Of a stretch of 64,000 nt of DNA, positions 48,635 through 64,000 are shown in pieces. This DNA is from an uncultured Clostridia bacterium (GTDB lineage: Bacteria; Bacillota; Clostridia; Oscillospirales; Oscillospiraceae). The DNA lies in the NCBI GenBank assembly GCA_947173485.1, contig CAMWFH010000001.1:62001-126000 (forward strand), written 5' to 3'. Numbering within the stretch: the first letter of the stretch is position 1; every line of letters starts with the position of its first letter. A program made the translations under genes and the position numbers. Below the pieces are notes generated by a model. It ran no database searches. It was given only the letters and a program-made list of their open reading frames with translations, and was not told the origin of the DNA.

Positions 48635-50608
48635 CTATCCCTCCGCATAGCGGATCACGATCTCGTCAAAGTTTTGAAGTATCTGGGTGAAAAGGCCGTT
48701 CTGCCCGTTGACCAGCAGGTCCACCGGCCGGTCCAGGTTGTCGAAGTCTATGCCGGACCGGTCCAGCAGGTCCATCAGATAGTAGGGCCCGCCATCGGGC
48801 TTGGCCGGCAGGGCCAGCGCCGCGCCGTTCAGATGGACCAGCAGGGAGCGGCCCTTGGGCGGCTTGGCTGCCGGCTCCTCTGCCGGGCTCTCCGGCACGG
48901 CAGGCAGCTCCTCCGGCAGGGCCTCTTCCGCCGCCGGGTCCTCCGGGACCGCCGGTACGGCCTCTGGCACCGGTTCCGGTGCCTTTTCCGGCAGGCTCTC
49001 CGCCTCCTCCGTCTGGGCGATGGCAAAGGGCTCCTCATAGGTCAGGACCTGGTCCCCCACATGGAGCTCTGTCTCCAGGGGCACCGGGTGGCCGTTGACC
49101 GTGACGCCGCCGGGGAAATCCGCCCCCAGTAGGTCCGCCAGGGTCCGATGGGCGTCCCGCCCGGAGACTGCGGGGCGAAAGACGATCGAATCCCCCGCGT
49201 AGACCAGGGCGGAGGGCGTGGCCTCTGCGCCGTTCAGCAGCAACGTGGAGGGCACCGCCGGCTCGCCCCGAAAGACCATCCTCTGTCCATCGATGGTCAC
49301 GCTCAGGTTCTTCCCCGTCCGGCCCAGCAGGTCGGTGGAGGTGTAGCCGTTCATCATCAGCAGGTCCAGGGCCGTCAGGGTACCACTGCGGAAGAGCTTG
49401 GCCTGCTGGCCGTTGAGCAGGATCCGGTAGCTGTCGCTGATCAGCCCCAGGCCCGCGGAGACCGCGATCCCCAGGGGCGTAGCATACTCCGGGTCGTTCA
49501 GCTCGTACTCCTTGGAGAAGGCGCTGATATCGTAGTTGTTGCCCGCCAGGGCCACCCGGCGCTCATCCATCTCCAGCGCTTTCGCCACCAGCTCCCGCAG
49601 TCCAAGCAGCTTGCTGCCGCCCCCCGCCAGGAACAGCGCCGAGGGCGGGCCTCCGTTGATCTCCCGCACCTGGCGGGCCACCTCCTGGGCCAGGGACGCC
49701 GCGGCGGCGGACACTGCCTCCTGGACCTGGGCGCTGGGCACGCTCTGCTCCAGCCCCAGCACGTCCCGGTAGACGATGTTGGTGCTGCCCAGCTCCATCT
49801 TCATCCGCTCCGCCGTCTTGAAGTCCACCAGATACCGGCGCATCAGCTCCTCGGTGATCTCATCCCCGGCCACGGTGGCCATGGTGTAGCCCACCACGGC
49901 TCCGTCCCGGCAGACGGCGATATCGGAGGTGCCGGCGCCGATATCCGTCAGCACCAGGTTCAGCAGCCGCAGGTCCGCGGGGATGACGGCGTTCAGCGCC
50001 GCGATCGGCTCCAGGGTCAGGCTGGCCACCTCCAGGCCCGCCGCCGCCATGACGGCATACAGGCTCTCCACCACCTCACTGGGCAGGAAGGTGGCCACCA
50101 CGTCCGCCTCCAGCAGGCGGCCGCTGTGCCCCTTCAGGGTCGCCAGGGGATACCGGTCCAGCTGGTAGCTGGATACGGTGTAGCCCACCAGATAGGACCG
50201 CCGCTGGTCGTCCTCCCGGTCCGAGGACAGCGCCGCCTCCGCCTCGGAGACCGCGCCGCTCTCCAAGCGGCTGATCAGGTCGCTGTCGATCCGGGTCACC
50301 TGGGGCAGCTCCAGGGCATAGTGTCCCCGCTCCGTCCGCAGGGCCCGCCCGGCGGCGGCCACGCAGACCCGGGTCAGAGAGCAGCCCAACCGCTGCTCCA
50401 GGCGCTCCGTCACATGGCGGGCCACCTTGGCCACCTGGTCGATGTCCTCGATCTGGCCGTCCAGCATAGCCCGCTTGCTGTGCTCCTCCTTCTCGATCGC
50501 CAGGACCTCCAGCCGTTCCTCCATGGTCCGGCCCACCACGCCGATGATGCTGCGCGTCCCGATATCCAAGGCAAATATCAGATCCTGTTTTCTCATTTCC
50601 TCGGCCAT
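48635..50608 (-). CDS. FtsA-like actin-family protein with long C-terminal extension
   Basis: A 657-residue protein. Residues about 8-375 carry the actin-family ATPase of FtsA/PilM: FALDIGTRSIIGVV (phosphate 1), LVLTDIGAGTSDIAV (phosphate 2), LFLAGGGSKLLGL (adenosine), and an FtsA 1C-like insertion. True FtsA is near 420 residues; here the C-terminal 280 residues add two beta-rich modules separated by a Pro/Glu/Ala-rich linker (about 525-585), instead of the usual amphipathic membrane helix. No ftsZ is adjacent, so this is likely a paralog rather than the divisome FtsA. GGAG eight bases before the ATG. A partner lipoprotein gene follows. Confidence 0.82.
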   Translation of the reverse strand: MAEEMRKQDLIFALDIGTRSIIGVVGRTMEERLEVLAIEKEEHSKRAMLDGQIEDIDQVAKVARHVTERLEQRLGCSLTRVCVAAAGRALRTERGHYALELPQVTRIDSDLISRLESGAVSEAEAALSSDREDDQRRSYLVGYTVSSYQLDRYPLATLKGHSGRLLEADVVATFLPSEVVESLYAVMAAAGLEVASLTLEPIAALNAVIPADLRLLNLVLTDIGAGTSDIAVCRDGAVVGYTMATVAGDEITEELMRRYLVDFKTAERMKMELGSTNIVYRDVLGLEQSVPSAQVQEAVSAAAASLAQEVARQVREINGGPPSALFLAGGGSKLLGLRELVAKALEMDERRVALAGNNYDISAFSKEYELNDPEYATPLGIAVSAGLGLISDSYRILLNGQQAKLFRSGTLTALDLLMMNGYTSTDLLGRTGKNLSVTIDGQRMVFRGEPAVPSTLLLNGAEATPSALVYAGDSIVFRPAVSGRDAHRTLADLLGADFPGGVTVNGHPVPLETELHVGDQVLTYEEPFAIAQTEEAESLPEKAPEPVPEAVPAVPEDPAAEEALPEELPAVPESPAEEPAAKPPKGRSLLVHLNGAALALPAKPDGGPYYLMDLLDRSGIDFDNLDRPVDLLVNGQNGLFTQILQNFDEIVIRYAEG

Positions 50609-50667
50609 AGCTTCTCCTTTTTATACCCTCCTTTTTACACCTCCGGGGACAGGTAACGGGGCAACGC

Positions 50668-50702
50668 ATATATGGCGTCCCACGGAATGGGACGCCATAT
50701 AT
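50668..50702 (-). terminator. Hairpin after the chemoreceptor gene
   Basis: A perfect 15-base stem (50668-50682 with 50688-50702) just beyond the MCP stop and upstream of the FtsA-like gene. There is no U-run, so termination is plausible but not certain. Confidence 0.6.
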
Positions 50703-50722
50703 ATCGGTCCGCGATCCGCGGC

Positions 50723-52543
50723 TCAGTACTTCACGCCTCCGAAGGGGTTGGAGTCAGACCCGCTGCCCAGCATAGGCGGCTCGCTGTCGCCCCAGCTGGT
50801 GGCGGAGCCGCCGCTGAAGGAGGAACTGCTGCCACTATAGGAAGAGGCAGGAGAGAAGGAGCCGCTGCCGAAACCGGCCTTGCTGCTCACATGGAACTCG
50901 GCCATCAGCTGGTGCATGATGTTAGCCTGGGAGCTGAGCTGCTCGCTGGCCGCCGCGCACTCCTCGCTGGTAGCGGAGTTGGTCTGCACCACGGCAGAGA
51001 TCTGATCGATGCCCTCGGTGACCTGGGCGATGGCAGTGGTCTGGCTCTCCACGCTCTCGGTCACGTTCTCCATCATGGTGACCACCTTCTCGGCCAGGAC
51101 CATGGTCTGGGCCAGGGACTCCGTCACCTTCTCCACGGCGCTGGCACCCTCCTTCACGGCGGCCACGCTGCCATCGATCAGCCCCTTGGTGGCCTTGGCG
51201 GCCTCGTCGGACTTACTGGCCAGGTTGCGCACCTCATCGGCCACCACGGCGAAGCCCTTACCGGCGGAACCGGCCCGGGCGGCCTCCACGGCGGCATTCA
51301 GCGCCAGGATATTGGTCTGGAAGGCGATGTTCTCGATTGTGGCGATGATCTTGGAGATCTCCTGAGAGGAGGTGGAGATGTTCTCCATGGCCACGTTCAG
51401 CTGCTTCACATACTCGTTGCTGGCCGTGACCTGGGCGCCGGCCTGGTTGACGTGCTCCCGTGCCTCCTCCGCGGAAGCGGCGGTCTGCTTAGAGGTATTG
51501 GAGATATCGTTGATGGTGGCGGACAGCTCCTCCACGCTGCTGGCCTGCTCGGTAGCGCCCTGGGCCAGGGACTGGGAGGAGTTGGACACCTGATCCGCGC
51601 CAGCGGAGACCTGGTCGGCGGACCGGGAGATGTTGGAGATGGTCTCGCTCATCCGCAGGACGAACTGGTTGATGCTGTCCTGGATGGGCTTCAGGTCGCC
51701 GGGGAAGGTGGCAGTCAGTTCCACATCGAAATTGCCCTTGGCCATCTGGCCAGTGATATTAGAGATATCATGGATCACGGCATTCAGGACCGTCTGGCTG
51801 GTCCGCAGAGCATCGCACATCTCGCCCAGCTCGTTCTTACCATTGAACGTGACAGGGATCGCCAGGTCGCCCTGACTGAAGCCCACCAGAGCGCCCCGCA
51901 CTTGGGAGGAGGGCTCCACGATGGAGCGGATGATCCGGCCGGCCATCAGGATGACCACGATGGTGGCGATGACCATCACGCCGATGACGATGCCGATCCC
52001 AATGTTGGAGACCAGCTCCTGCCGCTTGATGATCTCCGCCTGGGCCTTGGCCAGGGCCTCGGCGGCAGCCGTGCCGGCGGAGGCGGCGGCATCCAGCTTG
52101 GGCGTGCAGCTCTCCACCAGCATATCCACCGCCTTCATCCGGTCGGTGGCCACCACTGCGGCGATGGCGGTGGCGTCAGCCTTCCATGTGTCGATAGCAT
52201 TGGCGAAGGCGTCCAGTGTGCTCCGGTCCTCCAGGGGGAAGACCTCCTTCAGATGGGCAAACTCAGCATCCAGCTCCCCCAGCTTATTGGTGGCCGTGGT
52301 GATGCTGCTGGTCTTCCCGGAGAGGGCGGCGTCCCGCAGGTTCCGGGCGGCGATGTTGTAATCGATCCGGCAGTCCGCGATCAGAGCGGTGGCCTCCACA
52401 TAGCGGTCGATGATGTCGTTGTACGAGTTCTTCTGGGAATTCATCATGATGAGCTCCGCCACGATGATGATCGCAGAGATCAGGATGGTGATGCCGAAGC
52501 CTACGATCAGGCTCTTTTTGATGGACATATTCTTGAAGTTCAT
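50723..52543 (-). CDS. Methyl-accepting chemotaxis protein
   Basis: A 606-residue chemoreceptor. Helix 1 (about 11-33), four-helix-bundle-type ligand domain (about 35-180), helix 2 (about 183-205), HAMP (about 206-260) and a long coiled-coil signalling domain. The kinase-binding tip reads [20 protein letters not shown] followed by [20 protein letters not shown], and flanking Glu/Gln pairs mark methylation sites. The C terminus is a flexible Ser/Gly-rich tail without the NWETF pentapeptide. GGAGG ten bases before the ATG. It is encoded alone; the ligand is unknown. Upstream (52544-52707) are small GC hairpins and no clear promoter. Confidence 0.95.
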
Positions 52544-52707
52544 ATGTAGCGTTCCTCCTAATTATTTTCTGCCGCCGTTCTCATCCGGCGTCAGATAAGT
52601 CCATATGCTCCCCTGCTCCGCAGGATCTGGGTGTCCCCGCGCCTTGGCGCTATGGATCGATCGCTCCATGACAGCTCTACCATCCTATCCTTAAGATCCG
52701 TGGGAGA

Positions 52708-53421
52708 TCAAACGATGTCCCCGTATTTCCCGTTGCGCACGTCCCCCACCAGCCGTCCATCGGACAGCGTGACCACCCGGCGGCGCATGATGTTCACATA
52801 CTGGCTGGCGTGGGTCGCCATGATCACCGTGGTGCCCCGGGCGTTGAGGTCGTTGAGCAGCTGCATCATGTCCCAGATGTTGTCGTCGTCCAAGTTGGCC
52901 GTCAGCTCATCCACCAGCAGGATGGAGGGGCTGATCACCAGCGCCCGGGCCAGCTCGGCCCGGCGGCACTCCCCCAGGGACAGCTCCACCGGGTAGTGGC
53001 TCCCCGCCCCCTTCAGCCCCACGATGCCCAGGGCCTTCTCCACCGTCTCCTCCGCCTCCCGGCGCAGGCCGCCGGCCCGGGCGGCCAGCAACAGGTTCTC
53101 CTGGATGGTCCGCTTGCGGATCAGCAGAGACTGCTGGCTGACGATGCCAAAGGTCTTGGAGAGGTGGGACCGCCAGGGGCCGAAGAACCGGCCCACGTTC
53201 ACGCCGTTGAGCAGCACCAGTCCCTTGTCGGCCCGGATCTCGCCGGAGATCAGCTTGAGCAGGGTGCTCTTGCCGGCGCCGGAGCTGCCGATCAGAAAGA
53301 CGAACTCCCCCTGGTAGACGGTCAGGTCGATGTCCCGCACGGCATAGTGCTTGCGCTTATTTTTCCCTCTGCCCTCCAGGGGGTAGATCTTCGATACATT
53401 TTCCAGGCGTATTTCTGCCAT
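52708..53421 (-). CDS. FtsE-like ABC transporter ATPase (orphan)
   Basis: A 237-residue ATP-binding subunit. Walker A GSSGAGKST (about 45-53), Q-loop FGIVSQQSLL, signature LSLGECRRAELARALV (the second Gly of LSGGE is Leu here), Walker B ILLVDELTANLD and H-loop IMATHASQYV. The overall pattern (VRDIDLTVYQGEFVFLIG, MRRRVVTLSDGRLV) is FtsE/LolD-like, but no FtsX-type permease is adjacent. The start at 53421 follows GGGGGAG closely. It has its own promoter (53484-53512). A cell-division or macrolide-export-type role is possible; which permease it serves is unknown. Confidence 0.85.
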   Translation of the reverse strand: MAEIRLENVSKIYPLEGRGKNKRKHYAVRDIDLTVYQGEFVFLIGSSGAGKSTLLKLISGEIRADKGLVLLNGVNVGRFFGPWRSHLSKTFGIVSQQSLLIRKRTIQENLLLAARAGGLRREAEETVEKALGIVGLKGAGSHYPVELSLGECRRAELARALVISPSILLVDELTANLDDDNIWDMMQLLNDLNARGTTVIMATHASQYVNIMRRRVVTLSDGRLVGDVRNGKYGDIV

Positions 53422-53483
53422 GGCTCCCCCATCTTTCAAAAGCGAAGGGACGACGCGCCCGTCCACGCTGGTCTGTCCTCTCT

Positions 53484-53512
53484 ATTATAGCGAATCCTTT
53501 CCCGAATGAAAA
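53484..53512 (-). promoter_or_regulatory. Promoter of the FtsE-like gene
   Basis: Minus-strand TTTTCA (53507-53512), 17-base spacer, TATAAT (53484-53489), about 60 bases before the ATG. Confidence 0.65.
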
Positions 53513-53632
53513 GAGGAAACATTTCCAAAAAGCAGCTGCGGACCTGTCAAAAATTTTCGTCCCACCAGGCCGATATCCGGCATTTTGCACAGAAGCGCCC
53601 GTTTCCCCCGCTGAAACGCATAAACAGCCCGT

Positions 53633-53654
53633 CCCTGGCCCCGAAGGGCCAGGG
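53633..53654 (-). terminator. UUCG-capped hairpin after the fliD-fliS operon
   Basis: A perfect nine-base stem (53633-53641 with 53646-53654) with a TTCG tetraloop on the minus strand, ten bases after the last flagellar gene. No strong U-run follows, so the terminator call is moderate. Confidence 0.6.
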
Positions 53655-53664
53655 GGGCGTCTCA

Positions 53665-54048
53665 TCATCTATTGTAGTAGGAATCCTTCCCGGCCAGACG
53701 GGTGTTCAGCCGGCGGTCCAGCACCAGGATCTGCTCTAGGAGCCGGCGGGCGATGCCCACCTGGTCGATGTAGGCCGCCTCCTCCCGGATCTGGGGAGGG
53801 GCCCCGTCCAGCAGTGCCTGGAGGCGGGAGTCGTCCTCGATCTTGGACCGCCGGTCGGCGATAATCGTTTGCAGCTCCTTCAGGTGGAGGATCGGCTCCT
53901 GCCGCATGGCCACCAGCAGCTTCACGGAGACCTGGTCGTTGCGGTCCAGGGCCTCGCCCAGCTGCCGGCTCACGTCCATGACCTCCACCAGATAGTTGTA
54001 CTTCCGCCGCTCTAAGACGGTCAGCTCCATCCAGTCGTTCCCGGTCAT
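53665..54048 (-). CDS. Flagellar-region helical protein, FliT-position
   Basis: A 127-residue, mainly helical protein (LTVLERRKYNYLVEVMDVSR, LGEALDRNDQVSVKLLVAMR, ARRLLEQILVLDRRLNTRL). It starts four bases after the fliS stop, with only a weak GGGAAGCGG ribosome site, so translation is probably coupled. By position after fliD-fliS it occupies the place of FliT, the FliD chaperone, and the size and helix content would fit, but the sequence similarity is too weak to assert it. An FlgN-like chaperone is another option. Confidence 0.65.
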   Translation of the reverse strand: MTGNDWMELTVLERRKYNYLVEVMDVSRQLGEALDRNDQVSVKLLVAMRQEPILHLKELQTIIADRRSKIEDDSRLQALLDGAPPQIREEAAYIDQVGIARRLLEQILVLDRRLNTRLAGKDSYYNR

Positions 54049-54051
54049 GGT

Positions 54052-54429
54052 CTACCGCTTCCCGCCGCTGTTCTTCTCGGCGGTGTGGAAGGCGTCCCGC
54101 ATCTCCCGCAGCATGGGCTGGAGCTCCTCCAGCACCCGCTTGTTGCGGCCGATCCGGATCCGGCCCAGCTGATAGGTGAAGTACTCGTACATCCGGCTCA
54201 GGTCTCTGCTGATGGGATACTGACGGTCCAGAGTCTCGTCCAGATAGCTGACGATGTTGACGCACCGGTCGACACAGTCCTCGAACTGGGGGTAGTCCTC
54301 CTTATCCAGTGCCAGGGAGGCCATCGCCGCCCGTTTGACCAGCTCGTCGTACAGCATCAGCAGCAGCTCTCCAGAGGTCATGGAGTTGATGGATTGTTGC
54401 TTGTACTGCTGATAGCCCCGTCTATCCAT
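54052..54429 (-). CDS. fliS: Flagellin export chaperone FliS
   Basis: A 125-residue four-helix-bundle chaperone that binds the C terminus of flagellin before export. The N-terminal YQQYKQQSINSMTSGELLLM and LYDELVKRAAMA are diagnostic of FliS, as is the YEYFTYQLGRIRI helix. It lies 30 bases after fliD and directly before a FliT-position gene. Flagellin itself is not in the window. AAGGAAA before the ATG supports the start. Confidence 0.95.
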   Translation of the reverse strand: MDRRGYQQYKQQSINSMTSGELLLMLYDELVKRAAMASLALDKEDYPQFEDCVDRCVNIVSYLDETLDRQYPISRDLSRMYEYFTYQLGRIRIGRNKRVLEELQPMLREMRDAFHTAEKNSGGKR

Positions 54430-54459
54430 ATCGTCTTTTCCTTTCCTTGCTCAGCCGTA

Positions 54460-56919
54460 TCAGCCGCCGCCCATCAAACCTGCCAGGGTGGAGCTCTGGG
54501 AGTTCATCTGGTTGATCAGCAGCTCCAGACGGGTGAATTGGTTGGTATAGTAGTCCACCCGGTCGGACAGCTTATCCTGCCACTTCTCGATCTGGGTGTT
54601 GATGTTCTCCAGCTGCTTCTGATAGTTGTTGTTCAGAAGAGAGATGGAGCTCAGGGGCGTGCCCGCCTCCTGGACCAAAACGCCCTTCACCGCGCCGGTG
54701 AGGCCGGCGTAGCGGTCCAACTGGGTCTTCATGTTCTGCATGATGCCGTTGGAGGAGGCGCCGCTGTCTTTGCTCTTGGTGAACAGCTCCGCCACGGAAT
54801 CCGGGTCGGTCTCCAGCACCTCCCGCAGCTTCTTCTCGTCCAGGGTGATGCTCATGGAGCCGTCCACGCTGCTGAAGGACTGGGAGATCCCCATCCGGTT
54901 GAGGAGGCTGCCGTCGGCGCCGGAGAGATTGAACACGTCCTGCATCCCCCGGTAGAGGCTGGAGAGGTTGTAGTCCCCGAAGAGGATGCCCTGCTTAGCC
55001 TTCTCCTCATAGCGCTCGATGGCGCTCTCGCTCATGCCGGCCTTGTCTTCCTCGGTCAGGGGCTCATAGCTCTTGAAGTCCCCGGTGGAATCCTGATAGG
55101 GCAGGGTGGAGTAGGCCGACTTGATCTCCGCCATCATCTCGTTGTAATCGGTGATCATAGACTTGACAGCGTCTACGATCTTATCGCTGTCCACGCTGGT
55201 CTTGAAGCCCACCTTCTCGTCGTTGGGGATGTCCTTTAGCTCTTCATTCTTCTTATCCGCGTTGAAGGTGTCCTTCAGGGCGATATTGAGCCCGTCCAGG
55301 GTGAAATTGTTGCTGCTGCGGGTCAGCTCCTTCTCCACACCGTTGATGGTCACATGCAGCTTGGCGTCATCGCCCGCGGTATAGGCCGCGCCCTCGTCCT
55401 CTGTCGAGCCAAAGATGTTCTGGGCCAGGCCCTCGGCCATGTCGATCTTGGCCTGGGAGCCGGTCTCCTTGGTGGTGAAGAGGAACTGCCCGGTGGCCTG
55501 GGAGAAGCTGACCTTCACACCGGCCTTGCTGTTGGCGTTGATATCGCTCATGATGGTGGAGAGCTTGGTATCCTTGCCGTAGCTGCCGATGGTCTCGCCG
55601 TTGATGACCAGGTCGTACTTGCCCTCGATCTCCTTGCCGTCCTTATCCTTGGAGGGCGTGGCCCCCTTAAAGGCGTCCTCGCCCATCAGCTCCTCCAGGG
55701 TCTTGTTGGTGTTGAGGTAGCTGGTGGCGGTCTTGCCGATGCCCAGCATATCGCCGCTGTCGGCATTGATCAGCAAGCTGGAGCCGTCTTCGATCTTGAA
55801 TTGCAGCCGGAGCTGGTCCTTGCCGTCATAAGTACCCAGGTTCTCCACCTTGATCTTATCGCCGAACTCCTTTTGGAACGCCGCCGACAGCTTCTCGGTG
55901 AACTTGGTGGCCAGATCCTTCTCCGCCACCTCTTCCCCGTCGATGGTGAACTTGCCGTCCTTGCTCTTCTCGATCGTGGGCATCTTGATCTGCTTGACGG
56001 TGCCGTCCAGGTTGACGTTCATCTGCTTGCCGGAGATGGCCTCGAAGTTGTCCACCATATGGGTGAACTCGGTGCTGTCCTTCACCTTGAAAGAGTTGAC
56101 CCGGTCCTCCAGGGTGGTGGACTTCAGGTCGCCCAGGCCCAGGGTCTTCTTGACGCTGTCGCTGGCGCCGTTGATGTAGACGCTGTTGCCGGCGCTGCTC
56201 TTATCGGCGAAGGAGATGGTGCCGTCGCTGCCCACGGAGACCTTGATCCGGTCGGCGGCGCTGACAGCGCCGCTGTTCAGGGCGATCTGCTGGTCGGCCA
56301 GCTTCTCGTTGATCATCTTGGCCAGGCTGTCGGCCTTCTCCTTGGCGGTGGTCCCTGTCACCTTATCCTTCGACGGGTCGAAGCTGATGCTGACCACCTT
56401 GCTGCCGTACACCAAGGACAGACTGCCGTTCAGGGTGCCCTGCTCGGTCTGCCCGCTGAGAGAGATCGCCCCGGCGGCCTTGATCACGGTATTCTCGTCC
56501 TGCTTGATCTTGCTGGCGGTGGAGTAACGGGCGGCGGAAGCCAGCTGGCTCACCCGGTCGATCACGATCTCGCTGCTGGTCTTGCCGCTGGCGCTGACCT
56601 TCTCCGCATTCTTCCCGGTGGTATCCACATTGACGCTGCCGCTGAAGAAGGAGGATGAGAGCAGATTGGTGCCGGAGGTATAAGAGGCATAATTGTTGCT
56701 GAACCCCACCATCTTAGAGATGATGCTCCGGTATGCGTCCTGTTTCCACTCGATCTTGGTCGCCTGCTGGCCTAACTGCGTGATCTTGGTCTGGTAGCTC
56801 TTCACCAGCCCTTCGATCATGCTCTCGGTATCCATCCCGCTGGCCAGCCCGCTGATGGTATTGGTGCTGTTCATCAGGCTGCTGAGAGTATTTGAGCTTT
56901 TTACGCCGCTGATCCCCAT
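54460..56919 (-). CDS. fliD: Flagellar filament cap protein FliD
   Basis: An 819-residue secreted filament-capping protein. The N-terminal region ISGLASGMDTESMIEGLVKS is the FliD_N signature; the C-terminal region (about 570-819) contains FliD_C with long coiled coils (LSSISLLNNNYQKQLENINT, WQDKLSDRVDYYTNQFTRLE). It is considerably longer than enteric FliD (about 470), with the extra length in the surface-exposed middle (about 200-560), which carries adhesin-like strand repeats. No signal peptide, as expected for type III export. GGAG ten bases before the ATG; a SigD-type promoter precedes it. First gene of fliD-fliS. Confidence 0.93.
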   Translation of the reverse strand: MGISGVKSSNTLSSLMNSTNTISGLASGMDTESMIEGLVKSYQTKITQLGQQATKIEWKQDAYRSIISKMVGFSNNYASYTSGTNLLSSSFFSGSVNVDTTGKNAEKVSASGKTSSEIVIDRVSQLASAARYSTASKIKQDENTVIKAAGAISLSGQTEQGTLNGSLSLVYGSKVVSISFDPSKDKVTGTTAKEKADSLAKMINEKLADQQIALNSGAVSAADRIKVSVGSDGTISFADKSSAGNSVYINGASDSVKKTLGLGDLKSTTLEDRVNSFKVKDSTEFTHMVDNFEAISGKQMNVNLDGTVKQIKMPTIEKSKDGKFTIDGEEVAEKDLATKFTEKLSAAFQKEFGDKIKVENLGTYDGKDQLRLQFKIEDGSSLLINADSGDMLGIGKTATSYLNTNKTLEELMGEDAFKGATPSKDKDGKEIEGKYDLVINGETIGSYGKDTKLSTIMSDINANSKAGVKVSFSQATGQFLFTTKETGSQAKIDMAEGLAQNIFGSTEDEGAAYTAGDDAKLHVTINGVEKELTRSSNNFTLDGLNIALKDTFNADKKNEELKDIPNDEKVGFKTSVDSDKIVDAVKSMITDYNEMMAEIKSAYSTLPYQDSTGDFKSYEPLTEEDKAGMSESAIERYEEKAKQGILFGDYNLSSLYRGMQDVFNLSGADGSLLNRMGISQSFSSVDGSMSITLDEKKLREVLETDPDSVAELFTKSKDSGASSNGIMQNMKTQLDRYAGLTGAVKGVLVQEAGTPLSSISLLNNNYQKQLENINTQIEKWQDKLSDRVDYYTNQFTRLELLINQMNSQSSTLAGLMGGG

Positions 56920-57005
56920 ATCAACTCGCTCCTTTTCTCGGTTTTATGGTAGTCAAGTACGTTTTAAGAAAAACGATAGAAAAGGCCGGAACCCTCTGTA
57001 CTTTT

Positions 57006-57032
57006 TTATCGTCATGTAGTATAGTAAAGTTA
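57006..57032 (-). promoter_or_regulatory. SigD (sigma-28)-type promoter of fliD
   Basis: Minus-strand TAACTTTA (57025-57032), 11-base spacer and GACGATAA (57006-57013), compared with the sigma-28 consensus TAAAGTTT-N11-GCCGATAA: five of eight and seven of eight positions match. It lies about 85 bases upstream of the fliD ATG, as expected for a late flagellar gene. Confidence 0.78.
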
Positions 57033-57081
57033 AGACTTTCCGCAAAGATTTTATACGAAAGATTCTATGGGAGGGGATATC

Positions 57082-57870
57082 TTGTCTGCGATCATTTCCA
57101 TCACCAACCAAAAGGGCGGCGTCGGGAAAACGACGGCCTCCTGTTCCCTGCTGGCCGGCCTGCGCCAGCGGGGCGCCCATGTCCTGGGCATCGACCTGGA
57201 CCCCCAGGGCTCCCTGGGCTTCTGTCTGGGCCTGGACATCGACAGCTGCGCCACCATCTACGATGTGATGCGGGGCAGCAGGCCCATCCGGGAGGTCATC
57301 GTTCCCTCGGAGTGCGGGGACATCCTGCCCTCCAACATCCTCCTCTCCGCCGCGGAGCTGGAGTTCAACCGGGCGGGCCGGGAGTTCCTGCTGAAGAACG
57401 CCCTGGCGGAGATCCAGGACGAGTACGACTACGTCATCATCGACACGCCCCCGGCGCTGAACGTCCTCACGGTCAACGCCTATGTGGCCTCCGACGGCCT
57501 GATCATCCCCATGGCCCCGGAGATCCTGAGCCTGCTGGGAGTGGCCCAGATCCGGGAGACCATCGACACCGTCCGCCGGTGCTACAACTCCCGCCTGCGG
57601 GTCCTGGGCATCCTGCTCAACAAGTTCAACCAGCGCTTCACCCTCAACCGGGAGGTGCTGGAGATGGCCAGCCAGATCGCCGGCCAGCTGGACACCAAGG
57701 TCTTTGAGACCAAGATCCACACCAGCGTCTCGGTGGCGGAGGCCCCGGCCCACGGCGAGAGCGTGCTGACCTACGCCCCCAGCTCCAAGCCCGCCCTGGA
57801 CTTCCAGGCCCTCATCGACGAGATCACCAAGGAGTACACCCCGTTCCCCCGGACAGAGACCACACGATAA
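57082..57870 (+). CDS. ParA/Soj/MinD-family ATPase
   Basis: A 262-residue ParA-type ATPase. Deviant Walker A KGGVGKTT (11-18), Walker A' LGIDLDPQGSLGF, Walker B VIIDTPPAL and the late segment LLNKFNQRFTLNREVLEM. The TTG at 57082 is chosen because GGGAGGGG lies six bases upstream and the family consistently starts a few residues before the first strand; an ATG at 57067 overlaps that ribosome site. No ParB or centromere-like repeats are seen. It is divergent from fliD and 12 bases before a ComFB-domain gene. A role in positioning a surface or motility structure, by analogy with FlhG and ParC, is inference. Confidence 0.9.
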   Translation: MSAIISITNQKGGVGKTTASCSLLAGLRQRGAHVLGIDLDPQGSLGFCLGLDIDSCATIYDVMRGSRPIREVIVPSECGDILPSNILLSAAELEFNRAGREFLLKNALAEIQDEYDYVIIDTPPALNVLTVNAYVASDGLIIPMAPEILSLLGVAQIRETIDTVRRCYNSRLRVLGILLNKFNQRFTLNREVLEMASQIAGQLDTKVFETKIHTSVSVAEAPAHGESVLTYAPSSKPALDFQALIDEITKEYTPFPRTETTR

Positions 57871-57882
57871 GGAGAAACGACC

Positions 57883-58872
57883 ATGGCAGCCGCTAAGAAG
57901 AACAGTAAGAGCAACAAGACCGCCCACGTCCTCAACCTGCTGACCGCACCGGGGGGCGAGAAGGAGCCAACCGCCGCCCCGGAGGAGGGCCAGGCGTCCC
58001 CAGTCCAGCAGAGCGCGCCCCCACCGGCCAGCCGGCCCCTGACGCCGCCGATCCTGGAGGTGGCCCGCTCCAATGATGAGCAGCTCTCCGCCCAGATCCA
58101 CGACGCTCTGGCCGCGGAGCTGGAGGCCCTGGACGCGCCCACGCCGCCGCCGGCGCCGGCCAAGCCCGTGACCCTTACGCCTCCGGCCCCCCAGGCCCCT
58201 CCCTCCACCGTGGCAGGACCGGAGAACACCGACCTGTCCGACCAGATCCGCAGTGCCCTGGAGGCGGAGCTGGCCGCCCCACAGCCGGCACCGCAGCCTG
58301 TACCGCCCGCGCCGCAACCGGTACAGCCGGACCCCCAGCCTGTACAGCCCGCGCCGCAACCGGCACAGCCGGACCCCCAGCTCGTACAGCCCGCGCCGCA
58401 ACCGGCACAGCCGGCCCCCCAGCCCGTACAGCCCGCGCCGCAACCGGCACAGCCGGACCCCCAGCCTGTACAGCCTGCGCCCCAACCGGCGCAGCCCGCT
58501 CCTATGACTGCCCAGCAGACCCAGGTCCTCTATGCGCCTGTGCAGCCGGACCCAGTCCCCAAGGCCCCCGCTGTCCCGCCGGAGCCGGAGGACGAATACG
58601 CCTACATCAACGTGATGCAGGCCCTGGTCGAGGAGCTGGCCCCCAGGTATATGAAGATGTTCGGCCTGTGTACCTGCCACCACTGTCAGGTGGACGTGAA
58701 GGCCCTGGCGCTGAACAATCTGAAGCCGAAGTATGTGGTGATCCGCAAGAAGGACGCGATCCCCCGTCTCACCGTCTACGAGGGCCGTTACAGCGCGGAT
58801 ATCTACGCCCAGCTGACCCACGCCTGCCGCGCCGTGATGGAGCATCCTCACCACAGCCCCGACCGGCAGTGA
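57883..58872 (+). CDS. Proline-rich protein with C-terminal ComFB domain
   Basis: A 329-residue protein. A basic N terminus with short helices is followed by a low-complexity Pro/Gln/Ala region; residues about 142-207 are five 14-residue PAPQPVQPDPQPVQ-type units. The last 100 residues are a ComFB domain: AYINVMQALVEELAPRYMKM, CTCHHCQVDVKALALNNLKP with the three-Cys metal motif, then KYVVIRKK. ComFB was first named from the B. subtilis competence operon; related proteins have been reported as cyclic-dinucleotide receptors. Two short helices DEQLSAQIHDALAAELEAL and DQIRSALEAELAA repeat before the Pro-rich part. It is probably co-expressed with the ParA gene 12 bases upstream. Confidence 0.85.
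   Translation: MAAAKKNSKSNKTAHVLNLLTAPGGEKEPTAAPEEGQASPVQQSAPPPASRPLTPPILEVARSNDEQLSAQIHDALAAELEALDAPTPPPAPAKPVTLTPPAPQAPPSTVAGPENTDLSDQIRSALEAELAAPQPAPQPVPPAPQPVQPDPQPVQPAPQPAQPDPQLVQPAPQPAQPAPQPVQPAPQPAQPDPQPVQPAPQPAQPAPMTAQQTQVLYAPVQPDPVPKAPAVPPEPEDEYAYINVMQALVEELAPRYMKMFGLCTCHHCQVDVKALALNNLKPKYVVIRKKDAIPRLTVYEGRYSADIYAQLTHACRAVMEHPHHSPDRQ
58306..58503 (+). repeat. 42-bp tandem coding repeats
   Basis: Units start at 58306, 58348, 58390, 58432 and 58474 (the last partial), each encoding a 14-residue Pro/Gln-rich segment. Near-identity at the DNA level, including third positions, indicates recent expansion by slippage or recombination. Confidence 0.9.
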
Positions 58873-58887
58873 CCATGATACACAGAA

Positions 58888-58917
58888 ATGCCCCGGCAGG
58901 ATGACCTGCCGGGGCAT
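58888..58917. terminator. Hairpin between convergent ComFB and HDOD genes
   Basis: A perfect 13-base stem (58888-58900 with 58905-58917). Neither side has a good U-run, so it is a probable but unproven terminator. Confidence 0.6.
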
Positions 58918-58931
58918 CGTGCTGTTATCTC

Positions 58932-60203
58932 TTATTGGGCCGCGCTGACCGCGTTGGCGGCCCCCATCAGCTGCCGCCAGATGCTGTTGACCTCCTCCAG
59001 GCACTTGAAGTAGGTGTTGGTCAGCAGGTTGACGGGGATCTCCAGCTCCTCCGCCAGGGCGCCGATGGACGCCCAGTCCGCCCGCTCGTAGCAGAGGACC
59101 AGGTCGTACAGGGTGCCGCACCGGCCAGTGTGATGGAGCAGGGCGTCCTTGACCTCCTGGGGGATCGGCAGGCCCGCCAGGATCTCGTCCAGGGGCGCGT
59201 CGATCAGGTAGTTCAGGGTGGAGAACATCCCCATCAGGTAGGCGTCGTTCCGGGAGATGGGCATCCCCTTCGCCAACTTCATCAGCTCGGCGCAGAAGCT
59301 GGCACGCATGAAGGAGGTCTTGAGGAACTCCTCCTGGCCGCCGTCGTCCTTGCCGTCCTCGGTATTGGTCCCCAGCAGGTAGATCCACTGGCGCAGCTGC
59401 CCTAAGCCCATGACCACGATGGCCTGGTGGACGGTGGTGGCCTGGTTGCGCAGGGCGAAGTAGCCGGAGTTGACGATCTTCAGCAGGCTGTAGGTCAGCA
59501 TGGCGTCCATGCTGATGATGTTCTCGATCGCCTCCACGTCCGGCTCATCCTCGTTGATGGCCACCATCAGGCGGAAGAAGTTGCTTTGCAGATAGCTGTT
59601 GGAGTGGACCGTGGTACACAGATGCTCCGCCACATACCGCCCCTCCAGGTAATCCACCTCCATCTCCACCGCCCGCTTGTGGAGCGCCTCGCTGTCGATG
59701 CCGGTGGCGATGCACTGCTTGTTCATGCTGTGGGCCACCTCGATGATGTTGCGCAGGCTGGAGTCCAGGGTGGTCTGGAAGTTGATCTTGATGTAGTCGA
59801 AGTGGTCCATGATGGCAAAGTAGCGGGGCGAGAACTGGAACTCGTTCACCGCGATCTTATAGCCGTCCCGGGAGAAGCGCTCCACGAAGCGCATGGCCAG
59901 GGGATGGATGATCACGCTGTCATCCACCTGGATCACCAGATCGCTGCAGTTGAACAGCCTCGGCGTCTGCTTCATCAGCAGCGTGGTGGTGAAGGTCATA
60001 AAGTTGAGAGAACCCTTCAGCACCTTGTCGGTGTTCTGCGTCAGGAAGCTGTAGATGGTATCCGCCGCCGCGAACTCGTTCGAGCTGCTGGTATCCTCAC
60101 TGCTGTAGGCCTGGTTCTCCCCATGGTATTGGATCTCATATCCGATCGTCTTGTTCTTCAAGTCCTTGATGGGCTTGCGAACGATATACTTGCTGCTGTT
60201 CAT
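58932..60203 (-). CDS. HDOD-domain protein with degenerate EAL domain (YuxH-type)
   Basis: A 423-residue cytoplasmic signalling protein. The N-terminal half (about 5-205) follows the EAL fold: IGYEIQYHGEN, FMTFTTTLLM, VIQVDDSV, YKIAVNEFQF, YIKINFQ. The catalytic EAL Glu/Asp residues are not conserved (for example DDFD/KID positions read KIN), so it is not expected to hydrolyse cyclic di-GMP. The C-terminal half is an HDOD domain (about 205-400; LMVAINEDEPDVEAIENII, TYSLLKIVNSGYFALRN, VHQAIVVMGLGQLRQWIYLL). GGGGAGG precedes ATG 60203. It sits at the end of a cheC-cheD-cheV cluster, so a role in motility or chemotaxis is likely. Confidence 0.87.
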   Translation of the reverse strand: MNSSKYIVRKPIKDLKNKTIGYEIQYHGENQAYSSEDTSSSNEFAAADTIYSFLTQNTDKVLKGSLNFMTFTTTLLMKQTPRLFNCSDLVIQVDDSVIIHPLAMRFVERFSRDGYKIAVNEFQFSPRYFAIMDHFDYIKINFQTTLDSSLRNIIEVAHSMNKQCIATGIDSEALHKRAVEMEVDYLEGRYVAEHLCTTVHSNSYLQSNFFRLMVAINEDEPDVEAIENIISMDAMLTYSLLKIVNSGYFALRNQATTVHQAIVVMGLGQLRQWIYLLGTNTEDGKDDGGQEEFLKTSFMRASFCAELMKLAKGMPISRNDAYLMGMFSTLNYLIDAPLDEILAGLPIPQEVKDALLHHTGRCGTLYDLVLCYERADWASIGALAEELEIPVNLLTNTYFKCLEEVNSIWRQLMGAANAVSAAQ

Positions 60204-60257
60204 AGCTGCCTCCCCATATTCCGCTCCGTGCTCTGGCGGCACACAGCTTCAATTCCT

Positions 60258-61184
60258 TTATTTCTGGCCGCTCTGGATCAAAAGATGATCCATCACGCCC
60301 ACCAGATGCCCGATCTCCGGCTTCGTGAGCTGCTCATCCGCCCCTAGCTGGAGGCCCTTGATGCGCATCTCGTCACTGATGAGAGAGGAGAAGATGATCA
60401 GCGGGACCTTCTTGAAGCGCTCGTTGTCCTTCACCAGCTTCGTCAGCCGGTGACCGTCCATCTGGGGCATCTCGATATCGGTGATGATCAGAGACACCTG
60501 GTCATAGATGTCCCCTCCCTTAGGCAGCTCGCACAGCGCGTCCCAGAGGGCCTTGCCGTCCGGGAAGGAGCGCAGGTTCACATACCCCGCCTTGTGGAGG
60601 GACTCCTTGATCAGCCGGGTCAGCAGCACGCTGTCCTCCGCCATCCAGATGGGATGGGTGTTGCGCTCCCGCAGGCCCAGCGCGTCGATCTCCGCCACCT
60701 GGATGGAGGTCTGGGGCGCGATCTCCGCCACGATCCGCTCGAAGTCCAAGATCGTCACCAGGTCGTCACCGCACTGGGCGATGCCAGTGGCCACCCCCTC
60801 GGCGCCGCCGGAGACCGCTTTGTCCGGCTTCTGGATGTCCGTCCAGGAGATCCGGCTGATCTGGACCACCGAGTGGACCCGGAAGGCGATGAACATCTTG
60901 TTGAAGTTGGTGATGATGAAGATATCCTTCTCTCCCCGCTGTCCGTCGCCCCCATTGAGATACTTGGGCAGATCTACAACAGTCAGGACCTCGTCGCGGG
61001 GCTTGAAGATCCCCTCCACTGCCGCGTGGGCATGGGGCATGGGCTTCACAGGCTCAGCGATCATGATCTCCTTCACCTTGGCCACATTGATGCCATACAG
61101 GTTCCCGTCGATGGTAAACTCCATGATCTCTATCTCGTTGGTCCCGGACTCCAGCAGGATCCCAGTGTTGTGCATCTCCGCCAT
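60258..61184 (-). CDS. cheV: Chemotaxis coupling protein CheV (CheW plus receiver)
   Basis: A 308-residue protein. CheW-like domain (about 1-165; EIMEFTIDGNLYGINVAKVK, AVEGIFKPRDEVLTVVDLPK) couples receptors to CheA; receiver domain (about 175-308; WMAEDSVLLTRL, LIITDIEMPQMDGHRL with the phospho-acceptor Asp, and KPEIGH with the conserved Lys) is phosphorylated by CheA and helps adaptation. ATG 61184 with TAGGAG eight bases upstream is preferred over the GTG at 61193. It lies 44 bases after cheD. Confidence 0.93.
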   Translation of the reverse strand: MAEMHNTGILLESGTNEIEIMEFTIDGNLYGINVAKVKEIMIAEPVKPMPHAHAAVEGIFKPRDEVLTVVDLPKYLNGGDGQRGEKDIFIITNFNKMFIAFRVHSVVQISRISWTDIQKPDKAVSGGAEGVATGIAQCGDDLVTILDFERIVAEIAPQTSIQVAEIDALGLRERNTHPIWMAEDSVLLTRLIKESLHKAGYVNLRSFPDGKALWDALCELPKGGDIYDQVSLIITDIEMPQMDGHRLTKLVKDNERFKKVPLIIFSSLISDEMRIKGLQLGADEQLTKPEIGHLVGVMDHLLIQSGQK

Positions 61185-61228
61185 TTTCGACACTCCTAAC
61201 CATTATAAATTTGTTCTTTCCCCAGCGA

Positions 61229-61714
61229 TCAGAAAATGATATCCTTTTTCCCGTAGGACCGTATGCACGCCTTGCCGCTGGCCACATCGAACAGCAGCGT
61301 CCTGGCGACCGTACCGCCTACATGCTCCTCCAGCAGCCGGACGCCCTCCTTGTTCAGCACGGCGTGGACGCTCTCGATATTGCGCTGGCCGATATTGCCC
61401 AGGGAATTGTTGCCCCCTACGTCGAACATCTTGGCCCCGCCGGCAATCTTCACTGTGATCCTGTTCCGTCTGGCCCCCTGCATCTCCAGCTGCCGCAGGG
61501 TCTCGCGGATCCCTGTATCCGCATATTTCAGGGGATGGGTCCGGCCCGCCTCCATATTCAGCGGCAGCATGACGTGCAGCAGCGCCGCCAGATGGAACAC
61601 GGGATCGTGGAAGCACAGCCCGATGCAGGACCCCAGGGCGTAGGTGATCAGGATCCCATCGCCCTTCGCGATCTTCATGTCGGCGATCCCCACAGTGATC
61701 TTGCTGTCAGCCAT
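61229..61714 (-). CDS. cheD: Chemoreceptor glutamine deamidase CheD
   Basis: A 161-residue protein that deamidates receptor glutamines and partners with CheC. The catalytic Cys is at position 30 in LGSCIGLCFHDP and the His near 47 in LLHVMLP; FDVGGNN and SLGNIGQRNIE follow the family pattern. The ATG overlaps the cheC stop by eight bases (ATGGCTGA), so translation is coupled. An in-frame GTG three codons upstream is a weaker alternative. Confidence 0.93.
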   Translation of the reverse strand: MADSKITVGIADMKIAKGDGILITYALGSCIGLCFHDPVFHLAALLHVMLPLNMEAGRTHPLKYADTGIRETLRQLEMQGARRNRITVKIAGGAKMFDVGGNNSLGNIGQRNIESVHAVLNKEGVRLLEEHVGGTVARTLLFDVASGKACIRSYGKKDIIF

Positions 61715-62333
61715 CCGAGACACCCAGTTTCTTTAGTAAGAAGTTCAAAGACCGGATATCGGGGGAGAGCAGCAGGTGGCAGGGGACCTGCTGGCCGTTG
61801 TAGACGAAATTCCCGCCGATGGTCATGAGATAATCCGACATGCCGCCGTACTCCGCCATGGGCACCGTCAGGATCGCCCCCTGCATATCCAGCGCGAAGG
61901 CCGGCACCGTCAGGTCGATCGACACGCCGCACAGGCCGGAGAAGGCGTTGATGAAGGTGGAGATCATGATGTTGCCGATCTCCACCAGAGCCGACTGCTC
62001 CAGCTCCCCCAGCCCCTCGTAGCTGTCCACCGTCTTGCCCAACATGCTCTCCAGGACCAGGTTCACGAAGGGCAGCTTCTGCACCGAGAGCATGATGCCG
62101 TTGATCTGGCCGCCCATCTTCACCAGCACCCCGGCGGTCACCGACTCCGGCCCGCCGATCCACTCGATGGCCTCGTTGTAGCCCATGATCCGCACCTCGG
62201 GCAGGGTGATATGCACCTCCCGCCCCAGGATCTGGGACAGCGCGGTGGCTGCGTTCCCGGTCCCCACGCTGCCGATCTCCCGCAGGGTATCGATCTCCAA
62301 TGAGTTCAGCTGATCAAAGCTCTTGATCGCCAT
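61707..62333 (-). CDS. cheC: CheY-phosphate phosphatase CheC
   Basis: A 208-residue protein with two CheC/CheX phosphatase signatures: EIGSVGTGNAATALSQILG near residue 20 and ELEQSALVEIGNIMISTFIN near residue 115, each with the Glu...Asn catalytic pair. It dephosphorylates CheY-P and its activity is stimulated by CheD, which overlaps it. It lies 12 bases after the flagellar rod/hook gene. Confidence 0.93.
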   Translation of the reverse strand: MAIKSFDQLNSLEIDTLREIGSVGTGNAATALSQILGREVHITLPEVRIMGYNEAIEWIGGPESVTAGVLVKMGGQINGIMLSVQKLPFVNLVLESMLGKTVDSYEGLGELEQSALVEIGNIMISTFINAFSGLCGVSIDLTVPAFALDMQGAILTVPMAEYGGMSDYLMTIGGNFVYNGQQVPCHLLLSPDIRSLNFLLKKLGVSDG

Positions 62334-62345
62334 ATTTCATCCCCC

Positions 62346-63137
62346 TTAGCTCCGTAATCCATTGATGGTCGTTTCGATCTCGTCGGAGGTCTGCACCATC
62401 TTCAAGGCGTAGCTGTAGGCCCGGGAGGCCTCGATGACCTTGACGAACTCCTCCGCCAGGTCCGTGTTGGAGCCCTCCAGATAGTGCTGGATCACCCGTC
62501 CGGTGCCCAGATACAGATCCCCGTTCTTCTCGATCGGCGTGAAGCGCCCGCTGTTCAGATGCTGCAGGCCCTCCCGGACCACATAGTCGAACACACCGAT
62601 GTCCAGCCGGTCCACACTGATCTCGTCCCGGCTCAGATCTGTGATGTCGATGAAATTGCCCTGCCGGTCCAGCACGCACCGGCCCTCGTTGTCGCTGAGC
62701 CGCCAGACCACCGTGGGCTGGGGCTCGATCTCCTCCCCGGTATCCGGGTCGATCTCCGGCTCGGCGTCCTCCGGGGGCGAGATGGTGAACTGGGAGCGCA
62801 TGAAAGCGCCGTCCCGGGTGAAGGAGATCTCTCCGGTCCGGGGGTCGTAGAGGGCGAAGAAGCCGTTGCCCTCGATGGCGAAGTCGTAGGTCCGCCCAGT
62901 GTCCTGGTAGATGCCGGGACCGAAGTCCACCGTCACCTTGCTGACCTTGGTCCCGCAGCCCCGGGGCAGCTGCTCCTCGTCGATGCCCAGCACATTGCCG
63001 TACATCAGCTGATGGAAGGTCACCTTGCCGGCCTTGAAGCCGTGGGTGCCGATATTGGAGATATTGTTGCCTTGGACGTTCATCTTCTTCTGCTGCATAT
63101 ACGCGCCCACCGCGCCGGTATAGAAGGATAGATTCAT
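62346..63137 (-). CDS. Flagellar rod/hook-basal body protein, FlgF/FlgG family
   Basis: A 263-residue axial protein exported by the flagellar type III system. N-terminal MNLSFYTGAVGAYMQQKKMN, then VQGNNISNIGTHGFKAG (the flagellar basal-body rod motif ANNxANxxTxGFK), IEGNGFFALYD, and a C-terminal VKVIEASRAYSYALKMVQTS helix. ATG 63137 is chosen although its ribosome site (AAAGGTG at ten bases) is modest. Whether it is the distal rod protein FlgG or the proximal FlgF cannot be decided; a second member lies just upstream. Confidence 0.88.
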   Translation of the reverse strand: MNLSFYTGAVGAYMQQKKMNVQGNNISNIGTHGFKAGKVTFHQLMYGNVLGIDEEQLPRGCGTKVSKVTVDFGPGIYQDTGRTYDFAIEGNGFFALYDPRTGEISFTRDGAFMRSQFTISPPEDAEPEIDPDTGEEIEPQPTVVWRLSDNEGRCVLDRQGNFIDITDLSRDEISVDRLDIGVFDYVVREGLQHLNSGRFTPIEKNGDLYLGTGRVIQHYLEGSNTDLAEEFVKVIEASRAYSYALKMVQTSDEIETTINGLRS

Positions 63138-63204
63138 AGCTCCATCACACCTTTCTCTCACTCATCCAGTCATCTTACAGCGCCCGCCCTGTCAGGGCCG
63201 CCTA

Positions 63205-63954
63205 TCAGAGCCGGCCCAGATCGCTGGTGGCCCGGACGATGACCTGGTCGTAGATCTTGCTCATGGTCGCGGCGCTCTGGAGCGCCCGCTGGGTGGTCAT
63301 CATGCTGACCATCTCCCGGATCATGCTCACATTGGACCGCTCGGTCCACTGGTGGTGGATCACCATCTCCCGGTTGACCTGGGCCCCCTCCCCGGTGAAC
63401 AGGCCGAAGGGCGTGCGCTCCAGGGCATCGTTGTCCGGGAAGCTGTAGACCCCCAGGGTCCCCAGATAGGAGTTGTCGCTGGCGTAGATATTGCCCGCGG
63501 TGTCCGCGTGGATCTGGTCGGTGCCCAGCCGGAGGGGCTCCCCCTGGTCATCCAGCACCCGGCCGAACTCGGACATACACAGATACCCGTCGTTGTCCAG
63601 GATGAAGCTGCCGGCACGGGTGTAGGCGGTGCCGTCCGCGGTCTGGATGGCGAAGAAGCCGTCCCCCTCGATGGCGAAATCCAGGGGCAGCTCGGTCTCG
63701 TCGAAGGCCCCCTGGCCGTAGTCCGTATAGAGGACGCTGGGGGCCAGTATGTAGCTCTCCATGCCCATCTCCGTAGAGACGGCCTTGTTCTTATTGCCCA
63801 CCCGGCTGATCATCACCTCCCGGAAGGTGCTGTCGGTATACAGCTCCGCCCGGTAGCCGGCGGTGGAGATATTGGTCATATTGTTGGCCACTACGTCCAG
63901 CCGCCGTTCCTGGGACACCATGCCCGACGTCAGATTGTAGAACCCTTTGAACAT
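63205..63954 (-). CDS. Flagellar rod/hook-basal body protein, FlgF/FlgG family (second member)
   Basis: A 249-residue axial protein: MFKGFYNLTSGMVSQERRLD, VVANNMTNISTAGYRAE (rod motif), LPLDFAIEGDGFFAIQTADG, YTRAGSFILDNDGYLC and a C-terminal MVSMMTTQRALQSAATM helix. GGAG eight bases before the ATG supports the start. It lies 67 bases before the other FlgF/FlgG-type gene, so the pair probably gives the flagellar rod. The operon's promoter is outside the window or in its last 40 bases. Confidence 0.9.
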   Translation of the reverse strand: MFKGFYNLTSGMVSQERRLDVVANNMTNISTAGYRAELYTDSTFREVMISRVGNKNKAVSTEMGMESYILAPSVLYTDYGQGAFDETELPLDFAIEGDGFFAIQTADGTAYTRAGSFILDNDGYLCMSEFGRVLDDQGEPLRLGTDQIHADTAGNIYASDNSYLGTLGVYSFPDNDALERTPFGLFTGEGAQVNREMVIHHQWTERSNVSMIREMVSMMTTQRALQSAATMSKIYDQVIVRATSDLGRL

Positions 63955-64000
63955 TGCTGCACTCCTCTCGACGTTTACTGTCCGCTACTCATATACTGCT

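Follow-up and report, generated by a model that had tools for sequence, protein, structure and literature searches.

A Soj-like ParA ATPase paired with a ComFB-domain protein beside flagellar genes of Oscillospirales, a candidate flagellar positioning system

ParC-ParP and PpfA-TlpT are chemoreceptor positioning systems built on a ParA-like ATPase. Both ParC, a ParA-like ATPase tied to motility, and FlhG (FleN, YlxH), an ATPase of the ParA/MinD fold that is encoded among flagellar genes and governs flagellar number or position, are described systems of this general kind (PMC10241942). ParA partners, including ParB and McdB, use a basic-aliphatic region at their N-terminus to bind their ATPases and to activate them (PMC12204374, PMC12462528), while FleN-FleQ and BcsRQ-BcsE join ATPases of the ParA/MinD fold to partners that bind c-di-GMP. 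Separately, cyanobacterial relatives of ComFB are c-di-AMP/c-di-GMP receptors that control pili and competence (PMC12313861), with published affinities that are low micromolar, and B. subtilis ComFB, which has a zinc site with four Cys ligands, has been proposed to be regulatory (PMC4381287). In a limited literature search, we found no paper that describes a ParA and a ComFB protein as one system.

The pair of genes described here has features in common with each of these systems. Like FlhG, its ATPase is encoded among flagellar genes, and FlhG's job is the one we propose for it, but the ATPase is Soj-like, its partner is a ComFB protein rather than the FlhF GTPase, and FlhF/FlhG and the pair never occur together in the genomes surveyed. 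As in McdA-McdB and ParA-ParB (PMC12204374, PMC12462528), the ATPase comes with a putative partner whose N-terminal peptide is basic-aliphatic; this partner, however, ends in a ComFB domain and has no ParB domain, there is no carboxysome, and the proposed cargo is flagellar. The pair shares with ParC-ParP and PpfA-TlpT a ParA-like ATPase tied to motility, although its partner has no CheW-like or receptor domain (Pfam). The ComFB protein has the domain and fold of B. subtilis ComFB and of cyanobacterial CdgR-ComFB (4WAI, 8HJA). Those proteins are small and act in competence, pili or cell size, whereas the one here has a long linker and a conserved N-terminal peptide, and its gene is preceded by that of a ParA. 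Finally, the receptor in FleN-FleQ and BcsRQ-BcsE is FleQ or BcsE rather than a ComFB protein, and the output is transcription or cellulose secretion.

The gene pair and the control region it shares with fliD

We analyzed a 64,000-nucleotide stretch of DNA (the window) from an uncultured Clostridia bacterium of the Oscillospiraceae, whose genome assembly comprises 3.04 Mb in 47 contigs. The features around the pair are as follows:

54460-56919, minus strand: fliD, divergent neighbor (FliD_C and FliD_N, Pfam)
57006-57033, minus strand: SigD-type promoter-like box, TTAACTTTACTATACTACATGACGATAA, reading towards fliD
57082-57870, plus strand: ParA/Soj-type deviant Walker A ATPase, 262 aa, TTG start (Pfam, Foldseek, invariant residues)
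57883-58872, plus strand: ComFB-domain protein, 329 aa, putative ParA partner or adaptor
58932-60242, minus strand: EAL-HDOD (YuxH-like) protein, convergent neighbor (Pfam), kept in most loci of the long type (see below)

Thus, the original prediction of a ParA gene without a ParB, followed 12 bases later by a gene for a Cys-containing ComFB protein, with both divergent from fliD, is borne out by Pfam matches and coordinates. The ParA gene has a Shine-Dalgarno sequence, GGAGGGG, at 57070-57076, while that of the ComFB gene (AGGAG) overlaps the ParA stop codon. The convergent genes beyond the ComFB gene are, in order, the EAL-HDOD gene, cheV, cheD, cheC and two flgG-like genes (Pfam; cheD and the flgG-like genes were identified by sequence and gene order). 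The EAL match of the EAL-HDOD protein spans only positions 114-235 of the 236 in the profile, so this protein is probably no active phosphodiesterase.

Two other minus-strand genes in the window deserve mention: one for an ABC ATPase (52708-53466; Pfam ABC_tran), which lies beyond fliD-fliS-orf127 and is kept in most flagellar loci that we read, and one for a 657-aa FtsA/PilM/MreB-like protein (48635-50608) near flagellar genes, a 60% identical relative of which adjoins the ABC gene in the flagellar locus of genome G034 (L041). There were no Rfam or tRNA matches in 50000-64000. A plasmid origin was rejected, as no plasmid record covered 80% of the query and the five listed of 38 cover only 5-7%.

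The gap between fliD and parA measures 162 bases, and the pattern of its SigD-type box (TAWN-N14-16-GNCGATA) occurs on the fliD strand in 68 of 76 such intergenic regions, compared to a mean of about 0.45 in shuffled sequences. On the parA strand the pattern occurs in only one of the 76 loci; in the window nothing similar points to parA, and there is no sigma-70-type promoter match in 56850-59000. By its conservation and orientation, the box is a real conserved element and, as a predicted promoter, belongs to fliD and not to parA. The proposal that the two genes share a control region holding a SigD promoter therefore survives for the region and the box, but the orientation of the box towards fliD speaks against a SigD-controlled parA.

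Conservation of the pair, its ATPase lineage and the absence of FlhF/FlhG

Among 120 genomes of the family, ComFB is found in 25 and FliD in 27, with both in 23 (Fisher 2e-18), and the two genomes that have ComFB but lack FliD reach a completeness of only 73% and 85%. ParA lies directly 5' of the ComFB gene in 15 family genomes, 15 further genomes of the order and two of the class; a sixteenth order genome (G320), in which the contig ends before ParA, is still counted as a pair genome. All 31 pair genomes in the family and order surveys have fliD. Pairs fall into a long type and a short type, the latter with a ComFB protein of 145-173 aa, and a divergent fliD adjoins all 24 long-type pairs in whole genomes. 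Moreover, in a named collection, scanned with an alignment of seven closer ComFB rows, a ParA is present at 55 of 55 loci with upstream sequence and a divergent fliD at 51 of these; the relatives found are Oscillospirales (Lawsonibacter, Oscillibacter, Pseudoflavonifractor, Pygmaiobacter, Acutalibacter and others). Since dozens of species keep this arrangement, it is more than chance, and the pair is found next to flagellum genes in many gut Oscillospirales. With this conserved adjacency, half of what the original prediction had staked itself on, a place next to flagellar genes in relatives and a motility phenotype on loss, has come out in its favor.

On the far side of long-type pairs, where covered, the order is EAL-HDOD-cheV-cheD-cheC-flgG-sigD-flhA in many loci and includes fliW, flgL and flgK in others. 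Short-type pairs are divergent from flgM-flgN-flgK-flgL in four genomes (G003, G024, G119 and G196) and near a flagellin-like gene in G044, while the pair of G307 and two pairs of the f6 type are not beside flagellar genes. The f6 pairs (L107 6820-8371 and L108 6956-8324) represent another lineage with a ParA closer to Soj, and both of their genomes have FliD.

The ATPase of the window matches Pfam AAA_31 (PF13614, E 9.5e-51). In Foldseek, Soj/ParA structures rank at the top (E 1e-26, TM about 0.85) with 33-37% identity, compared to 17-23% for FlhG/FleN structures; the fold is nearer to Soj/ParA than to FleN, FlhG or MinD. Across the aligned ParAs of the pairs, the KGGxGK[T/S] motif of the deviant Walker A ATPases and the catalytic Asp are invariant, as are the equivalents of Soj G12, K16 and D40. 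In comparison to a B. subtilis Soj sequence, the equivalent of R189 is kept in 23 of 24 long-type ParAs and that of R218 is lost, while basic residues are conserved at positions 185, 194, 212 and 214. On this pattern of residues, non-specific binding to DNA (the nucleoid) is plausible. In a protein tree, the long-type ParAs form one group (97/90), and together with those of the short type (100/99) they stand apart from Soj; the f6-type ParA is separate, with a weak placement. The tree, considered together with the neighborhoods, points to one old ParA-ComFB association that has mostly been retained with flagellar genes.

We considered that the ATPase might be an ordinary plasmid or chromosome partition protein that happens to lie beside an unrelated ComFB gene, based on its closest structures being those of Soj/ParA. 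However, the ParA gene at 57082-57870 is not followed by the ParB gene that a ParABS system would have; a Soj-ParB pair, as well as a plasmid-like ParA-ParB, is encoded elsewhere in the same genome, and the flagellar ParAs form a clade of their own. The conserved pairing with ComFB, found at every one of the 55 loci mentioned above, and the lack of ParB refute this reading, to which we give almost no probability.

We searched for FlhF and FlhG in 73 FliD-positive genomes of the family and order. FlhF was found in none of the 31 pair genomes (none of 30 if G320 is left out), compared to 19 of the 42 other flagellated genomes (Fisher 4e-6); in the family alone, the counts were 0 of 15 with the pair and 5 of 12 without it (P = 0.01). 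At the cut-off used, the only FlhG match in pair genomes was a weak one in the window's own genome (E 7e-21, 29% identity), which is a MinD-like gene near soj-parB. Both proteins are also absent from the two pair genomes at the class level. Thus, the ATPase of the pair is not of the FlhG class: it is Soj-like by tree and by Foldseek, and it occurs in genomes with neither FlhF nor FlhG. In loci in which flhA and sigD are both visible, sigD directly follows flhA; in B. subtilis, flhF-flhG lie between these two genes. Mutual exclusion of the pair and FlhF/FlhG is a fact of the surveyed sample, and replacement of FlhF/FlhG by the pair is a hypothesis. The latter calls for caution: in 23 flagellated genomes neither FlhF nor the pair is present, such that the pair is not the sole answer to the loss of FlhF/FlhG. 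Furthermore, outside the family most FlhF-positive genomes come from a single other family, which means that the samples lack independence and that the exclusion is in part phylogenetic.

Anatomy of the ComFB protein

The following features were found in the ComFB protein of the window, all on the plus strand:

57916-57942: N-terminal peptide KTAHVLNLL (aa 12-20), putative ParA-binding and ATPase-stimulating motif, conserved in relatives
58051-58131: second conserved helix (aa 57-83), which contains LEVARSNDEQLSAQIHDALAAELE (pattern in relatives and AlphaFold2)
58280-58496: 42-base tandem repeat coding for a Pro/Gln/Ala-rich linker, 5.2 copies, 91% matches
58609-58848: ComFB domain (aa 243-322; PF10719) with CxCxxC and one more Cys, pLDDT mostly above 90

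The N-terminal pattern KTA[HR]V[LM]NL[LI] is matched in 78 of 79 long-type ComFB proteins, all of which keep the K, T and V, and the V is replaced by I in the 79th; the fuller consensus of the 79 is [KRN]-[STG]-[SNT]-K-T-x-[HR]-V-[LM]-x-[LV]-[LIV], which mostly reads KTA[HR]V[LM]NLL. AlphaFold2 places a helix at aa 12-21 with low confidence. The second helix (LSxQIxxALExEL-like) is present in 70 of the 79 relatives and is modeled with a pLDDT of about 73-88 over its core. The linkers of long-type proteins span 79-462 residues, of which on average 77% are P, A, E, Q, S, T or D; they are predicted to be disordered, and AlphaFold2 models that of the window's protein with low confidence.

The C-terminal domain is a member of the Pfam ComFB family (E 7e-15; 55.2 bits compared to a gathering score of 25), and scores 38.4 bits against the NCBIfam equivalog for the late competence protein ComFB (NF052654), below the 120-bit threshold. 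Its four Cys residues are invariant in 20 relatives and appear equivalent to the zinc ligands of 4WAI, which predicts a zinc site here. In Foldseek, the modeled domain matches B. subtilis ComFB (4WAI, E 5e-5) and, in a comparison at the level of the fold, c-di-GMP-bound CdgR (8HJA, E 3e-3, prob 1.0). The suggested link between ComFB proteins and cyclic dinucleotides thus agrees with this fold match and with the published c-di-AMP/c-di-GMP receptors (PMC12313861). The same genome also encodes a second, stand-alone ComFB of 91 aa (L001 1486-1761, plus strand), and no flagellar gene was recognized in the 14 kb around it (L127).

Given the name of ComFB and its control of pili and competence in cyanobacteria (PMC12313861), the pair might position a DNA-uptake machine or type IV pili, as the original prediction had allowed alongside flagella, and stand-alone ComFB genes of several other Clostridia do lie near pilin or PilD-like genes (names read from sequence). 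We consider such a role highly improbable, because half of the pair genomes tested (15 of 30) have no ATPase of the T2SSE family (PilB/PilT class) at E <= 1e-20. Moreover, the cultured Oscillibacter valericigenes Sjm18-20, which carries the pair (L235, 6743-7522 and 7500-8261), is peritrichously flagellated and lacks type IV pilus genes (PMC3558957), and the synteny is flagellar. Thus, a ComFB that is linked to a ParA seems to have its place among flagellar genes, and the flagellar half of that proposal is further backed by the complete co-occurrence of the pair with fliD and by its mutual exclusion with FlhF/FlhG in the surveyed genomes.

The pair might also be a regulator and not a positioner, in which an anti-activator-like ParA and ComFB as second-messenger receptor would control flagellar gene expression, as FleN-FleQ does in Pseudomonas. 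The structural matches of our ParA include FleN-FleQ, both with c-di-GMP and without it, as well as BcsRQ-BcsE with c-di-GMP, and a regulatory role has been proposed for B. subtilis ComFB (PMC4381287). This reading is unlikely in our estimate: neither protein has a DNA-binding transcription factor domain (Pfam), Soj is a nearer relative of the ParA than FleN/FlhG, and the partner is laid out like a cargo adaptor.

In 11 relatives from several lineages, we found EIDALL-like motifs (MSQEDIEKML- or LSDDAIAALF-like) in the linker, in one to six copies each, 35 matches in total, compared to none in 200 shuffles; they resemble motifs that FliY and FliM carry in the window's genome and in its relatives (LSQEEIERLL and LSQSQIDALL), and EIDALL motifs in FliM/FliY bind CheY-P (PMC9126983). 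The window's own ComFB protein has no such motif, and has the 42-base Pro-rich repeat instead. An extreme case of linker expansion is a 581-aa ComFB protein (L174 6534-8279, plus strand) with six MSQEDIE[KR]ML copies and a long EP repeat; a FliY-like protein of the window's genome (L243, minus strand) has two LSQEEIERLL motifs in tandem, of the kind that recurs in the linkers of relatives.

The pair might instead segregate or position chemotaxis clusters, in the manner of ParC-ParP or PpfA-TlpT, and not basal bodies: the EIDALL-like motifs of some linkers could bind CheY-P (PMC9126983), and in most long-type loci the gene order continues from the EAL-HDOD gene straight into cheV-cheD-cheC. We regard this as a possible but rather doubtful alternative, as the constant neighbor is fliD, with fliW, flgL and flgK and not che genes on the far side of other loci, most short-type pairs adjoin flgM, flgN and flgK, and Pfam found no CheW-like or receptor domain in the partner.

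A possible flagellar positioning system

We favor the reading that the pair is a two-protein system of the ParA/MinD class dedicated to the flagellar apparatus, for positioning or control of number, and give it a probability of roughly 0.58. To judge from its sequence, the ComFB protein has the build of a ParA partner, with a basic-aliphatic N-terminus, a linker and a domain that resembles the dimeric ComFB of B. subtilis. According to this model, ParA-ATP dimers would bind the nucleoid, and a dimeric ComFB protein would bridge ParA to its cargo. The dimer of C-terminal ComFB domains would bring two N-terminal peptides together, which would then attach to ParA and stimulate its hydrolysis of ATP; the linker, together with the ComFB domain, would engage the flagellar or chemotaxis machinery, with basal bodies likelier than receptor arrays. 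In this way the system might determine the spacing or the number of flagella in lineages without FlhF/FlhG, with an effect on motility, and binding of cyclic dinucleotides by ComFB may tune it. In favor of the flagellar model are the adjacency to and co-occurrence with fliD, the absence of FlhF/FlhG from the pair genomes, the partner-like N-terminus, the retained ATPase residues and R189 equivalent, the single ParA clade of the long and short flagellar pairs, and the EIDALL-like motifs of some relatives. Features that speak against it are the 23 flagellated genomes with neither FlhF nor the pair, the partly phylogenetic nature of the exclusion, the loss of R218, the lack of an EIDALL-like motif in the window's protein and the non-flagellar pairs of f6 and G307.

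A more specific version, in which the ComFB receptor is itself the cargo adaptor of a second-messenger-gated ParA system that, in much of the flagellated Oscillospirales, replaces FlhF/FlhG in setting how many flagella there are or how they are distributed, is tentative, and we would not bet on it. Nevertheless, the pair is a compact candidate for the placement or counting of flagella in common gut bacteria that lack FlhF/FlhG, and its carriers include a cultured species with a complete genome. If the model is true, ComFB would gain a concrete partner, and one adaptor protein would link cyclic-dinucleotide sensing to a ParA-based positioning motor.
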